Part shown: piece after piece, positions 12,529-18,825 of the stretch | Layout: the number at the start of each line of letters is the position of its first letter | How positions within the stretch are numbered: position 1 is the stretch's first letter | Origin: Bacteroidales bacterium | GTDB lineage: Bacteria; Bacteroidota; Bacteroidia; Bacteroidales; P3 | NCBI GenBank assembly: GCA_017530105.1 | Contig: JAFXMW010000014.1 | Location: 1-44,149, forward strand | Length of the DNA: 44,149 bases | Direction: 5' to 3' | Notes under the pieces: generated by a model | Told to the model about the DNA's origin: nothing | The model's database searches: none | What the model saw: the letters and a program-made list of their open reading frames with translations, nothing else | Program-made: the position numbers and the translations under genes

Positions 12529-13047
12529 ATGTCGCTCACACAACAGTTTCAATGGGTGGCGGCTTACACCGCGCCGCGTGCCGAGAAAACCGTGACAAAG
12601 CGCATTGCGCAGGAGTTGCAGCTGGAGACCTATCTCCCCCTGCATAGGGTTTTGCGCAAATGGTCCGACCGTGTAATGAGTCTGGAGGTACCCCTCATCC
12701 CCTCCTACACCTTTATCAAGATGCGCGAGTGCGACCTATGGCGCGTCAGGGAGATAAAAGGCGTGAGTGGCTTTATCTCCTTCCCCCGCACGGGCATTGC
12801 TGTAATCCCCGACAGCGACATACTCGTCCTCCGGCGTTTTGCCGACTCGCTCGAAGAGGTGCATGTCCGCAACCTTGAGCAATTGCGTGTCGGGGCATAC
12901 GTCAAAGTAATCGACGGGGAGTTTGCGGGCATGTCAGGGCGTATCACGCGGAACGGAGAGTGCGGCAATTTTGCCGTGGCGATATCAAACCTGAACCTCT
13001 ATCTGACAGTCACCATCCAGCAAGAGTACCTACAAATTGAGAATTGA
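12529..13047 (+). CDS. UpxY/NusG-family transcription antiterminator
   Basis: A 172-residue NusG-like protein: the N-terminal NGN domain contains WVAAYTAPRAEKTVTKRI, TYLPLHRVLRKWSDR and the typical VPLIPSYTFIKM; the C-terminal KOW-like part shows GAYVKVIDGEFAGMSGRI. This is the pattern of Bacteroides UpxY proteins, which let RNA polymerase read through the leader of capsular polysaccharide operons. Here only one glycosyltransferase lies nearby and a minus-strand nitroreductase follows, so it may be an orphan or a remnant of a larger polysaccharide locus. It has no Shine-Dalgarno site or promoter of its own that I can see, and starts right after the hydC terminator. Confidence 0.85.
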   Translation: MSLTQQFQWVAAYTAPRAEKTVTKRIAQELQLETYLPLHRVLRKWSDRVMSLEVPLIPSYTFIKMRECDLWRVREIKGVSGFISFPRTGIAVIPDSDILVLRRFADSLEEVHVRNLEQLRVGAYVKVIDGEFAGMSGRITRNGECGNFAVAISNLNLYLTVTIQQEYLQIEN

Positions 13048-15187: not shown

Positions 15188-15265
15188 GATCTGTTAGCTC
15201 AGTTGGTTTAGAGCGCTTGCTTGACAGGCAAGAGGTCACAAGTTCAAATCTTGTACAGATCACCA
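15188..15265 (+). tRNA. tRNA-Val (anticodon GAC)
   Basis: Cloverleaf fits: acceptor GATCTGT/ACAGATC, D-arm GCTC/GAGC, anticodon stem CTTGC/GCAAG with loop TTGACAG (anticodon 15223-15225), T-arm ACAAG/CTTGT with TTCAAAT loop. The 3' CCA is encoded (15263-15265). Confidence 0.95.
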
Positions 15266-15333
15266 AAAAGGGAGACGGAGGCATACGCCTCCGCTTGTTT
15301 TGAGAAAGACACCCTTTATGGTCAAAACCAAGC

Positions 15334-15408
15334 GGTCTGTTAGCTCAGTTGGTTCAGAGCGCTTCCTTCACACGGAAGAGGTCGACAGTTCGAATCTGCC
15401 ACAGACCA
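15334..15408 (+). tRNA. tRNA-Val (anticodon CAC)
   Basis: Acceptor GGTCTGT/ACAGACC, D-arm GCTC/GAGC, anticodon stem CTTCC/GGAAG with loop TTCACAC (anticodon 15369-15371, reads GUG). The T-stem has one A-C mismatch (15385/15399). CCA is not encoded (CCC follows the discriminator base). It lies 68 nt after the first tRNA-Val, in one transcription unit. Confidence 0.9.
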
Positions 15409-15413
15409 CCCAG

Positions 15414-15439
15414 AAGCCCCTAAAACAGGGGCTTTTTTT
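15414..15439 (+). terminator. Terminator of the tRNA unit
   Basis: AAGCCCCT (15414-15421) pairs with AGGGGCTT (15427-15434), followed by a T-run. Confidence 0.85.
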
Positions 15440-15604
15440 ATTTCATAAAGTCTGGATAAAGACACCTCTTTGTTTTATTATTATGTTTTCCATAGTTTGG
15501 ACATCATCTATTTTCTTTTTAGTTGTAGTGGCTGTATTACTATGATTTGATGAAATAAGGTACATTTATGTTACCAGATTGTTATTCGAATGAAAAAAAA
15601 AGTG

Positions 15605-15612
15605 TATCTTTG
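15605..15612 (+). promoter_or_regulatory. -7 element of the restriction-modification operon
   Basis: TATCTTTG fits TAnnTTTG; TTG at 15579-15581 is 23 nt upstream, longer than the usual 19-20. The implied leader before the first gene is about 260 nt and holds the nested hairpin described separately. The rest of the 475-nt gap since the tRNA pair holds the tRNA terminator and AT-rich sequence without a gene. Confidence 0.5.
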
Positions 15613-15701
15613 CACCGTAAATATTAACGAAAATAGACAATATATCGAAGCAAAAGAATAGAAATAAATACATAATATAGAAGCGTTTTTGCTTTTCTTT
15701 G

Positions 15702-15810
15702 TACGTGGAAATCTGGTAAATTTCAACTGTACTACAAAAGAGGCTAGACGCTCACGGGTATCCGTGAGCTTTCTTGTTTGTAGTACGGGCATTACCAGAG
15801 CCTCCACGTA
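15702..15810 (+). ncRNA. Candidate structured RNA leader (nested four-helix hairpin)
   Basis: Four perfect helices nest in order: TACGTGGA (15702-15709)/TCCACGTA (15803-15810); TCTGGTAA (15712-15719)/TTACCAGA (15792-15799); GTACTACAAA (15729-15738)/TTTGTAGTAC (15777-15786); GCTCACGG (15750-15757)/CCGTGAGC (15762-15769) with loop GTAT. The separating internal loops are asymmetric, as in folded regulatory RNAs rather than a plain palindrome. The segment TCACGGAT (15823-15830), followed by a T-rich run, can pair instead with ATCCGTGA (15760-15767), which suggests a terminator/antiterminator switch. I do not recognise a known riboswitch or leader class. The position, within the predicted 5' leader of the methylase/nuclease gene, points to control of that operon; this is inference. 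Confidence 0.6.
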
Positions 15811-15840
15811 GACATTAAAGATTCACGGATTTCTTTTTTG

Positions 15841-15884
15841 TAATGCTTGGAAAGGCAATTGACTTCGAAATAATCCAAGCATTA
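15841..15884 (+). promoter_or_regulatory. Hairpin overlapping the start codon of the restriction-modification gene
   Basis: TAATGCTTGGA (15841-15851) is the exact reverse complement of TCCAAGCATTA (15874-15884); the last base is the A of the ATG. The 22-nt loop is unpaired. Such a stem would hide the initiation region and could limit translation. Confidence 0.55.
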
Positions 15885-17782
15885 TGGCAAAAGAAAAGAA
15901 GACAGACATCATTGTGGCAGGACTTCTTGCAGAGGCTGGCATAGATGCAACGCCTAACGAAAGTTCCATTCGTGAGATAAACGATGCACTGAAAACGGCC
16001 TCAAAGCGCGATACTGGTAGGATGGGTTTTCCAGAGTATGTGGCACAGTCGGGCGATTTCATTCTTGTAATAGAAGACAAGGCAGAGGCTGAGTATCAGG
16101 CAAAGTATATTTACGGAAAGAACGACACCTTGCTCATGGATACACCCAGCAAAGAGAGGTATGCTGAAAATGGAGCCCTGCATTATGCACTAAAAATCAT
16201 ACAGGGCACAAACTTCAAACGCGTCATAGCCTTTGGCTGTTCGGGTACGGAAAAGGAGCGTCTGCGCATCCGTCCTATCTACGTTAGTCCTACTGGCTAT
16301 AAGTTGATGCCCATGGTCAGGGATTTTTCTTGGTTTGCCGCTGATAAGATAGAGCGTTACTATAAGGAGAAGATCTGCGGAAACAAACCCATCGAACAGG
16401 TCGAATTGGAGGAAATCATCTGTCGTGCAGGAAAATTGCACGAAGATTTGCGCAACTACGGACAGTTGGGCGATACAGAGAAGCCGCTGGTTGTTTCGGC
16501 AATTCTCCTTGCCCTACAAGAGGATAGTTTCAGTACGGAAGACTTGACTACGGATAAAGTCAAGACCGACGGCATGAAAATATATGAGGCTCTCTCCACC
16601 CACCTCGACCGAGTGAAGGTGCAACCAGAGGTGAAAAAACAGCGGGTCCTCGACCAATTCGCACTCATTAAGAACCGTCCCCATCTATCGGAAGAAAATA
16701 AGCAATTAGGCAAGTCCCCGCTGCACTACTTTGCCGAATATATCAATTCGAACATTCTTACCGCCATCACAAACAATTCACCAGAAGACGTACTCGGACG
16801 TTTCTATGGTGAGTTTATCCGTTATAGTGGCGGTGACGGGCAGACATTGGGGGTAGTCCTCACGCCGAAACATATTACAGAACTTTTCACAGAGCTGGTT
16901 GATGTACGTCCCGACGACAACGTCTTTGACCCCTGTTGTGGAACGGGAGGATTTCTTATTGCCGCCCTTCATAGAATGCTTACGCTGGCGCCAGCTTCCC
17001 AACACGAATTCATTCGCAAGAACAATCTGCATGGAATAGAACTGAGAGACGATATGTTTGCCATTGCCACCACCAACATGATTCTACGTGGGGATGGAAA
17101 AAGCAACCTCATTTGTCAAGACTTCTTGAAGCAGGACGAGGCAAAACTGCGTAACAAACATTTCACCGTAGGACTTATGAATCCGCCTTACTCACAGGGG
17201 AAGGTGAAGGAGACAGCGCACCTGACGGAATTGAAATTCATCTGCCATCTGCTCGACTCTTTGGCCGACGGAGCGCGTTGTGCCGTTATTGTGCCGCAAA
17301 GCACAATGGTGGGAAAATCGAATGAGGACAAAGAGGATAAGCGATATATTCTCGCACACCATACTCTTGAAGGTGTTATTACACTCAATCCGCAGACATT
17401 TTATGGAGTGGGAGTTAATCCCGTCATAGCAGTATTTACAGCTCACTATCCGCACGACCAATACGCCAAGTTTATCGACTTTAAAGATGATGGTTATGAG
17501 GTGTTTCCTCATGTAGGGTTGTTGCCCACTTCACGTGCTGCCGAGCGACGGAAACTGTTGTTGGAATGTTGGTCAAAGGGTCGTCCTGCACCTGTCAGTT
17601 TTATGGTGCAGAGCAAGGTAGAGGCTGATGATGAGTGGTTGCACTCATTCTACTATTTTAATGAGGAGATTCCCACCGATGCCGACTTCGAGCAAGCAAT
17701 GGCCGATTATCTCACATTTGAGTTCTCAATGATTACGCATGGCAGAGGTTATCTGTTTGAAAGAAAGGAGGCTGGCGAGTGA
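15884..17782 (+). CDS. BcgI-like Type IIB restriction-modification enzyme, nuclease-methylase (A) subunit
   Basis: A 632-residue fusion. Residues ~45-70 carry a nuclease-type motif FPEYVAQSGDFILVIEDK (Pro50-Glu51 ... Glu64-Asp65-Lys66), matching the PE-(X)n-ExK signature of the BcgI A subunit. Then come N6-adenine methylase motif I (FDPCCGTGGF, about residue 348) and motif IV NPPY (432-435), in an HsdM-like domain. The BcgI A and B subunits are, from memory, about 637 and 341 residues, close to the 632 and 348 here. Members methylate adenine in a bipartite site and cut on both sides of it, needing S-adenosylmethionine and Mg2+. There is no separate hsdR gene. A plain Type I HsdM is the main alternative, but the N-terminal motif argues against it. 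Confidence 0.8.
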   Translation: MAKEKKTDIIVAGLLAEAGIDATPNESSIREINDALKTASKRDTGRMGFPEYVAQSGDFILVIEDKAEAEYQAKYIYGKNDTLLMDTPSKERYAENGALHYALKIIQGTNFKRVIAFGCSGTEKERLRIRPIYVSPTGYKLMPMVRDFSWFAADKIERYYKEKICGNKPIEQVELEEIICRAGKLHEDLRNYGQLGDTEKPLVVSAILLALQEDSFSTEDLTTDKVKTDGMKIYEALSTHLDRVKVQPEVKKQRVLDQFALIKNRPHLSEENKQLGKSPLHYFAEYINSNILTAITNNSPEDVLGRFYGEFIRYSGGDGQTLGVVLTPKHITELFTELVDVRPDDNVFDPCCGTGGFLIAALHRMLTLAPASQHEFIRKNNLHGIELRDDMFAIATTNMILRGDGKSNLICQDFLKQDEAKLRNKHFTVGLMNPPYSQGKVKETAHLTELKFICHLLDSLADGARCAVIVPQSTMVGKSNEDKEDKRYILAHHTLEGVITLNPQTFYGVGVNPVIAVFTAHYPHDQYAKFIDFKDDGYEVFPHVGLLPTSRAAERRKLLLECWSKGRPAPVSFMVQSKVEADDEWLHSFYYFNEEIPTDADFEQAMADYLTFEFSMITHGRGYLFERKEAGE

Positions 17783-18825
17783 AACAAATAAAAGATTTCA
17801 AGTGGAAAGCTGTTTTGTTAAGCGAATTATTCTACTTCGACAAGGGCAATCAAAATAATATGGGCACAATGCAAGACGGTGATATTCCTCTCGTATCGGC
17901 CAAGAAGTGCGATAACGGCTATAAGGCGTTCATATCCGAAAACGGGAAAAGACTTTATGAAGGACATTGCATTACATTGAACAATGATGGAGATGGCGGA
18001 GCGGGATTGGCTTACTATCAGCCTATAAAGATGGCATTAGATTCCCATGTCACAGCCCTCATTCCAAAAGTTCCGTTGAGTAAACACGCAATGCTTTTTA
18101 TTGCACGAAGTATTTCAATGCAACGTTCTTTGTTTGGTCATGGTCGCAGTATTAATATGGCAAGGTTGCGCATATTCAGGTTAATGCTGCCTATGGATGG
18201 AAACAGCCAACCCGACTATGCGTTTATGGAAGAGTATATGATGGCAGTTGAAAAACGCCTCCTGATGCAATATGTAGCCTATTTGACGCGCATTTGCAAC
18301 CAAGTTGAAATGGATTTGTCAGAAAAGAAATGGAGGGCTTTTGCTATTTACAATGTGTTCTCCGACATAAAACGAGGAAAACGTCTAAAAACAGGCGACC
18401 ACATTGTAGGTGATACTGCCTATGTGTCGTCCTCGGCATTGAATAATGGTGTAGATGGATTTATTAGCAACACGGTTGGAGTTCGAATTTTTGACAATTG
18501 CATTACATTGGCAAATAGTGGAAGTGTGGGAAAGGCGTTCTATCATCCATATATTTTTGTGGCTAGCGACCATGTAACTAAGTTAAAGAACGAGTGTTTT
18601 ACAAAATACATTTATTTGTTTATTGTTACAGTTGCTAATAGACTGTCTGAAAAGTATAGTTATAATCGAGAAATCAATGATAAGCGACTTGAACGAGAGA
18701 AAATAATGCTTCCAATTGACGAAAACGGGCAGCCCGATTTCGACTATATGGAGAAGTACATGCAAAAACACGAGGCACTTCTTTTAAATCGATATATTAA
18801 AGCAAAAATACGTCCCCGGTTTTAA
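17779..18825 (+). CDS. BcgI-like specificity (B) subunit, HsdS-type with two target-recognition domains
   Basis: A 348-residue HsdS-like protein made of two repeated halves. Each starts with a W(K/R)A...F sequence (residues ~9 and ~185), has a target-recognition domain (IPLVSAKKCDNGYKAFI; TAYVSSSALNNGVDGFI), and ends with an LP(M/I)D.NGQPD/NSQPD...Y(M) helix (RLMLPMDGNSQPDYAFMEEY; KIMLPIDENGQPDFDYMEKY). Each half would read one half of a bipartite DNA site. The GTG start overlaps the upstream stop (GTGA), so translation is coupled and the two proteins should form one complex. No second hsdS copy or recombinase is nearby, so shuffling is not indicated. Confidence 0.85.
   Translation: MKQIKDFKWKAVLLSELFYFDKGNQNNMGTMQDGDIPLVSAKKCDNGYKAFISENGKRLYEGHCITLNNDGDGGAGLAYYQPIKMALDSHVTALIPKVPLSKHAMLFIARSISMQRSLFGHGRSINMARLRIFRLMLPMDGNSQPDYAFMEEYMMAVEKRLLMQYVAYLTRICNQVEMDLSEKKWRAFAIYNVFSDIKRGKRLKTGDHIVGDTAYVSSSALNNGVDGFISNTVGVRIFDNCITLANSGSVGKAFYHPYIFVASDHVTKLKNECFTKYIYLFIVTVANRLSEKYSYNREINDKRLEREKIMLPIDENGQPDFDYMEKYMQKHEALLLNRYIKAKIRPRF

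Follow-up and report, generated by a model that had tools for sequence, protein, structure and literature searches.

A predicted four-strand RNA switch ahead of restriction–modification and surface-protein genes in Bacteroidota

The window analysed here, a 44,149-nucleotide stretch of a Bacteroidales genome (contig JAFXMW010000014.1), contains a set of nested inverted repeats just ahead of a restriction–modification operon. The locus raises the question of whether these repeats act as a regulatory RNA and, if so, of what kind and for which genes; how bacteria choose the moment to express restriction and defence genes that are costly or harm the cell itself is, in our assessment, a mostly unsettled matter. 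An original prediction, made from the DNA alone, had read the repeats as an attenuator or riboswitch of an unrecognised class that would time the restriction enzyme against its methylase. From sequence comparison and computed folding, we consider it probable that the 5′ leader of the restriction–modification mRNA contains a transcription attenuator that acts in cis.

Architecture of the leader

By homology and by its competing strands, the leader extends over approximately 15682–15839, and it lies, as an attenuator would, between a promoter-type motif on the 5′ side and a same-strand gene, the first of the restriction operon, on the 3′ side (Table 1). Four nested helices had been predicted at 15702–15810; all four are found there in the sequence and all four form in the computed fold, so the helices were placed correctly but the proposed span was too short. 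As had been claimed, the structure is beyond chance: 15698–15814 folds at −54.5 kcal/mol, compared with −28.1 kcal/mol (s.d. 3.8) for 200 dinucleotide shuffles, none of which is as good (z = −6.9), and the larger span 15618–15884 also gives z = −6.9. A z of about −7, together with the covariation described below, rules out a chance structure.

The competing segment TCACGGAT at 15823–15830 is present as predicted, complementary to ATCCGTGA at 15760–15767 and followed by TTTCTTTTTT at 15830–15839. This distal strand is real, but the full distal pairing spans about 20 nucleotides with mismatches (15760–15781 with 15809–15831), and a 5′ strand at 15682–15701 had been missed. The nested four-helix picture thus describes a real fold, but only one of two possible states. 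The loops of hairpins HpA and HpB are mutually complementary, so kissing loops could make up the long-range helix P2; the data fit this arrangement and simple nesting alike.

A second copy of TTACCAGA, the HpB loop strand at 15792–15799, is found at 15571–15578, just 5′ of the promoter; it may be a chance occurrence, given that it lies 5′ of the expected transcript start. Two tRNA-Val genes (anticodons gac and cac, 15188–15442), followed by a GC-rich hairpin and a T-run, also lie just 5′ of the leader promoter.

Table 1 Coordinates of the leader, its predicted parts and associated features
Feature	Sequence	Position	Strand	Remark
Promoter −7 element	TATCTTTG (TAnnTTTG)	15605–15612	+	Transcription start expected a few bases 3′
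Strand A, 5′ switch strand	AGCGTTTTTGCTTTTCTTTG	15682–15701	+	Complementary to strand B (15734–15753)
P1, 5′ strand	TACGTGGA	15702–15709	+	Pairs with TCCACGTA at 15803–15810, 8 bp
Hairpin HpA	GAAAT-CTGGTAA-ATTTC	15708–15724	+	Loop 15713–15719 pairs with 15792–15798 (long-range P2)
Second helix (P2)	TCTGGTAA/TTACCAGA	15712–15719/15792–15799	+	8 bp; sequence and computed fold
P3	GTACTACAAA/TTTGTAGTAC	15729–15738/15777–15786	+	10 bp; also in inverted-repeat list
Strand B, 5′ strand of P3/P4		15734–15757	+	Partner is C (folded domain) or A (alternative)
P4 hairpin	GCTCACGG-GTAT-CCGTGAGC	15750–15769 (15750–15757/15762–15769)	+	8 bp; proposed antiterminator core
Strand C, 3′ strand of P4/P3		15760–15781	+	Partner is B (folded domain) or D (proposed terminator)
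Hairpin HpB	GGGC-ATTACCAGA-GCCT	15787–15803	+	Loop complementary to HpA loop
P1, 3′ strand	TCCACGTA	15803–15810	+	Partner of 15702–15709
Strand D, 3′ arm of proposed terminator	TAGACATTAAAGATTCACGGATT	15809–15831	+	Complementary to C, with mismatches
U-run	TTTCTTTTTT	15830–15839	+	Closes the C:D helix
Second inverted repeat	TAATGCTTGGA/TCCAAGCATTA	15841–15884	+	Runs into the first operon gene's start codon
632-aa restriction–methylase fusion		15884–17782	+	N6_Mtase; PADLOC REase_MTase_IIG (profile of 637 positions)
348-aa specificity subunit		17779–18825	+	Two Methylase_S stretches; PADLOC Specificity_II (profile of 341 positions)
DUF805 RNA region 3′ of related leaders		L122 1699–1764; L125 1789–1854; L215 4879–4944; L185 5470–5538		Separate cmscan matches

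Covariation and conservation of the folded domain

From 72 leaders aligned with plain MAFFT, RNAalifold predicts 35 pairs, 21 of them with compensatory changes. Across 101 leaders, 91.8% of the cells in helices P1, P2, P3 and P4 are paired, and double-change cells number 630, compared with 167 (s.d. 15) after shuffling, a count that none of 500 shuffles reaches, and 72–125 when the partner strand is slid; the 101-leader alignment leans towards these helices because it was fitted to the model, a fault that the plain MAFFT alignment does not have. Covariation is strong in P1, in P3 and in the long-range P2. The expectation of compensatory changes in all four helices therefore holds for P1, P2 and P3, but the innermost helix, P4, varies mostly on one side. 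The HpA (GAAAT/ATTTC) and HpB (GGGC/GCCT) stems are paired in 95.5% of cells, with 25 double changes against 6.8.

The leader therefore has a conserved folded domain with covariation, as a riboswitch does. One special case of the attenuator is a small-molecule riboswitch, in which a metabolite, once bound to the P1/HpA/HpB domain, would stabilise the antiterminator. Second-messenger riboswitches combine many unrelated targets with an exclusive expression platform, and the leader has both of these traits as well as a compact domain and long-range loop pairing. In the consensus of three alignments, however, the switch strands and the HpA and HpB stems contain most of the strongly conserved bases, P1 and P3 are variable, and inspection by eye reveals no obvious pocket of conserved, unpaired bases. 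We regard a metabolite sensor as unlikely. Because the conserved bases lie mainly in strands and hairpin stems instead of an open pocket, we favour a protein or the elongation rate over a small ligand as the input.

A protein-dependent antiterminator, the other special case, would have an RNA-binding protein or a NusG-like factor pick the fold. P1 and P3 keep their structure without keeping their sequence and the HpA and HpB stems are constant, a pattern that suits a protein-binding site. In the window, a gene for a NusG-domain protein (PF02357, 172 aa, 12529–13047), which we presume may be a UpxY- or LoaP-like antiterminator, ends 2.6 kb 5′ of the leader, with nothing to tie the two together. 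Set against this is the lack of any candidate protein tied to the leaders across genomes, and we hold this variant to be possible, at somewhat less than an even chance.

Two exclusive pairings of four strands

The attenuator reading depends on strands A, B, C and D being able to pair in two mutually exclusive ways. A swap test on 200 distinct leaders, with the partner strand taken from 40 other leaders, supports the A:B and C:D pairings, both of which are absent from the covariance models. Native A:B pairs at −15.8 kcal/mol compared with −12.8 kcal/mol for swapped strands (native better in 174 of 200 leaders), native C:D at −21.9 compared with −16.3 kcal/mol (195 of 200), and B:C is better in its native form in 188 of 200. 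The control combinations A:D (72/200), B:D (97/200) and A:C (83/200) leave these alternative pairings unsupported, and as the controls have the same ancestry, shared ancestry alone is unlikely to lie behind the A:B and C:D effect. The fourth base of A is paired with its partner in B in 167 of the 172 leaders in which it could be read (G–C 135, G–U 16, A–U 11, U–A 3 and U–G 2; the other 28 of 200 were excluded from this table only). In two leaders (L113 and L117), the distal strand is shifted in register and pairs with GTGGGCTT instead.

Column by column, the A:B and C:D pairs are formed in 93.5% of cells, with 62 double-change cells compared with 17.9 after shuffling. Pairs with a change on both sides show no excess (4 compared with 3.2 in shuffles, 178 of 500 as high), nor is there a clear excess of pair types (21 compared with 19.1; 76 of 500). 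This weak column covariation follows from the sequence constraint on the strands.

Computed folding, which ignores pseudoknots in its energies, places the two states in order. Full-length leaders fold with B:C in 196 of 200 cases. Forcing C:D (mean 18.7 pairs) restores A:B in all 200, with an average penalty of 12.0 kcal/mol; for the window leader, the forced fold has −47.4 compared with −61.8 kcal/mol, a cost of 14.4 kcal/mol. When the sequence is cut at the end of B, at least six A:B pairs form in 200 of 200 leaders, compared with 168 of 200 with shuffled A and 184 of 200 with swapped A, which makes this a weak threshold; the mean number of A:B pairs is 16.8 for native, 11.0 for shuffled and 13.8 for swapped A. 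Sequence and computed folding thus agree on two exclusive pairings, one of which ends in a U-run, and the predicted attenuator or riboswitch layout holds at this level.

A leader-peptide attenuator, with a short open reading frame over strand A, was considered and is not supported. Counting ATG starts only, frames that enter the leader occur in 10 of 198 cases, compared with 68.5 expected from shuffled upstream letters; this depletion argues against ribosome control and makes a leader peptide unlikely.

If the U-run were not a terminator, the fold might instead control translation or mRNA stability. Start codons are close to the leader, at a median of 46 nucleotides after the match and in some cases at its very end, and in the window the second inverted repeat, a possible extra layer of translational control, forms a hairpin that reaches into the start codon, as it does for some related defence genes: a GGAAAGGC-like motif picks 23 leader-to-start regions, in 10 of which the computed fold pairs one or two bases of the AUG. 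Two features also count against the attenuator: the loop of the proposed terminator is long, and in the window its helix carries mismatches. On the other side, a U-rich tract (at least six U within a 9-nucleotide stretch of the last 16) closes the C:D helix in 191 of 200 leaders, which is the form of an intrinsic terminator, and control at translation or stability in place of termination seems to us quite improbable.

Distribution of the leader family

BLASTN finds three clear paralogues of the leader in the genome of the window. As judged by eye, they precede the starts of an HsdM-like and a PLD-helicase-like frame, each truncated at a contig end, and a set of open reading frames, the second of which encodes an Eco57I methylase. 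Further copies emerge with covariance model R2, which has nine matches in this genome (E ≤ 3.4e-5); the weaker copies precede, as judged by eye, a type I methylase-like frame, a BspA-like repeat protein, a lipoprotein-like frame and two others. Relatives ahead of other genes, which the original prediction proposed to look for, are thus found both by BLASTN and by covariance models.

The leader is matched in at least 110 of 190 genomes of the window's family by BLASTN and in at least 110 of 393 genomes of its order by covariance model R1 (E ≤ 1e-4). In the phylum as a whole, R1 finds it in 31 of 395 genomes (E ≤ 1e-5) and R2 in 61 of 395. R1 was built from 72 leaders, after exclusion of sites that scored below 50 bits, of repeated cores and of a single short sequence, and R2 from 29 leaders, mostly of other orders; few candidates were scored per genome and the model E-values are rough. 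A DNA pattern of the P4 region occurs in at least 114 stretches of named species genomes. Among the 80 listed, 78 come from Bacteroidota (five genera checked, the others assigned by name), among them Millionella massiliensis (loci L187 and L206), and 2 are labelled uncultured bacterium; by model, all 80 contain a leader, two of which lose the 5′ end at a contig or locus end. The remaining pattern loci, L217–L250 (34 of the at least 114), were left out of the leader analysis.

The original prediction recognised no published class. With cmscan, no Rfam 15 family reaches its gathering threshold over the leader; this applies to the window and to the relatives tested, which made up overlapping sets of 18, 20, 6 and 6. 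Overlaps below threshold are at chance level: in the window, Phe_leader on the other strand (E = 0.71) and ZNRD1-AS1_1 (E = 5.1); in the relative L286, SpF43 (E = 0.81). No description of the leader was found in the literature searched, which took in few subscription papers and no bioRxiv preprints. By sequence comparison, then, the leaders form a family that is not in Rfam 15 and is distributed across the phylum Bacteroidota.

Position relative to promoters and genes bears on whether the repeats act as RNA at all. After removal of 11 duplicates from 182 sites, a same-strand reading frame starts within 400 nucleotides 3′ of the leader in 158 of 171 unique leaders, the other 13 having no usable frame. 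The motif TAnnTTTG, which we take to be the −7 consensus of the Bacteroidetes-type promoter, occurs 140–20 nucleotides 5′ of the leader in 117 of 147 cases, compared with 7 of 147 for a control stretch; 11 of the 158 leaders were excluded from this count because the upstream sequence was too short. That the repeats are instead a DNA element, such as a repeat or a recombination or mobile site, would fit the several copies per genome and the location of some near contig ends (by eye). We find this scarcely credible, given the promoter motif, the same-strand genes, the one-sided U-run and the strand-specific complementarity, and given that the P4-region pattern has no match in IMG/VR viral contigs and the window leader no BLASTN match in plasmid and phage records. 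A DNA repeat unrelated to any 5′ leader, the outcome named in advance as fatal to the prediction, is thus not supported by the data.

Genes downstream of the leaders

The operon in the window is a restriction–modification operon, as predicted: its proteins match profiles for a type IIG fusion and a type II specificity subunit. A restriction–methylase fusion (its nuclease part visible only through the PADLOC profile) accompanied by a separate specificity subunit with two target domains is the arrangement of type IIB, and the operon is consistent, by sequence, with a BcgI-like system, a likeness that we assume. The leader precedes the whole operon and both activities reside in one protein, so it cannot delay the nuclease relative to the methylase; related leaders also precede many other kinds of gene, and the suggested timing of restriction enzyme against methylase is not supported.

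Nor is the leader a dedicated partner of this restriction system, an option rejected because most homologues lack it and its relatives stand ahead of many other genes. Only 3 of 15 homologues of the window methylase carry a leader, the same count with R1 and R2, which implies that the gene does not need the leader and that leaders come and go. Ahead of a homologue with 65% identity to the window methylase lies a strongly diverged leader (L253, 1267–1453). That it might lack the distal part, as R1 stops at position 139, was rejected; R2 matches the whole leader, and a T-run follows.

Two sets of target genes were compared. The near set comprises 73 genes, 67 from the listed BLASTN matches most like the window leader, within its family, and 6 from the order search. 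At least 37 belong to protein clusters whose scanned members match defence profiles, a count in which some cluster members carry no individual scan and two large-protein groups are unmatched: 17 PLD-Snf2 helicases, 12 type I/IIG methylases, 4 large type I/IIG fusions, and one each of a type II methylase, a type III methylase, a type IV protein and an HsdR. As the near set was picked by similarity to the window leader, this share is not a genome-wide rate. The wider set holds 85 genes among the matches listed from the order search and the P4 pattern, some same-clade relatives included. By a simple home-made score, 54 of these 85 have a signal-like N terminus; the near set has 19 such genes among its 73, and the background, made up of frames no shorter than 200 codons that surely include some non-genes, has 125 among 558. 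Ten targets from other orders were scanned, giving four TonB receptors, two proteins with a sigma-70 region (ECF-like), two with a receiver domain, one RibD_C and one without a match; LytTR and response-regulator genes are also among the targets.

Large proteins of approximately 820 aa (L194, L086, L090, L093 and L048) and 770 aa (L034 and L058) are also encoded 3′ of the leader. PADLOC returns no match for L194, L048 and L058, and Pfam none for L194 and L058; the two groups are candidates for undescribed defence proteins.

Related leaders thus precede type I, II, IIG, III and IV proteins, helicases, lipoproteins, TonB receptors and regulators. That one RNA design serves as leader to five restriction types as well as to surface genes suggests that all respond to a common signal, which might be phage attack, starvation or the state of the cell surface. 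We give roughly even chances to the broader reading, in which an undescribed, phylum-wide class of RNA switch, built of four strands and paired loops and working without a peptide, puts restriction defence of nearly every type, together with surface and secreted proteins, under one co-transcriptional signal.

Proposed mechanism

In the attenuator that we propose, strand A would pair with B during synthesis, before C exists. In the OFF state, C would then pair with D in a helix of approximately 19 pairs (family mean) closed by the U-run, and transcription would end before the genes. In the ON state, P1, the HpA–HpB pairing and P3 would join B and C, so that P4 forms, D stays single and transcription proceeds. 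Since the ON state has the better computed energy and A:B can form earliest, the outcome would be a race of folding against elongation. A factor that holds the P1/HpA/HpB domain, or the speed of RNA polymerase, might bias this race, and we think that such a factor is slightly more likely to be a protein than a small molecule. With an ON advantage of 12 kcal/mol, the leader could also be nearly always ON. Termination, the direction of control and the trigger are points that we infer. The proposed switch predicts exact bases that are easily mutated, which makes attenuation and its trigger directly testable.

Comparison with known regulatory RNAs

In trp-type attenuators, strand pairings 1:2 and 3:4 (the terminator) exclude 2:3 (the antiterminator), and the leader appears to follow the same logic. 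Unlike these attenuators, it has no sign of a peptide, carries an extra domain (P1, the complementary-loop hairpins and P3) around strands 2 and 3, and does not target biosynthetic operons. Transcriptional riboswitches with loop–loop contacts, such as the purine type, set a folded domain against a terminator by strand exchange during transcription. The proposed competition in the leader is similar, whereas its conservation is mainly in the switching strands and not in the domain, with no pocket seen and no Rfam family at threshold.

Restriction–modification genes are themselves known to be under the control of C proteins. Antisense RNAs control EcoRI and Eco29kI restriction–modification, according to a review (PMC3874152) whose text contains neither the word riboswitch nor the word attenuation. 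The controls described there for EcoRI and Eco29kI concern single type II systems, whereas the leader type spans types I, II, IIG, III and IV. Among structured RNAs of Bacteroidetes found computationally are Bacteroidales-1, Bacteroid-trp and Flavo-1, as described in a second paper (PMC2864571); cmscan reports none of these, nor other Bacteroidetes motifs of that paper, in the leaders tested.

DUF805 RNA (RF03081) and DUF805b (RF02914) are cis-regulatory RNAs that here lie between leader and gene. Their models, of 68 and 35 positions, have structures unlike that of the leader, and the DUF805 regions are matched separately from it (Table 1); in L125, DUF805b matches only below its threshold. 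By sequence, the leader and a DUF805 RNA would form a tandem of two regulatory RNAs in several Bacteroidota.
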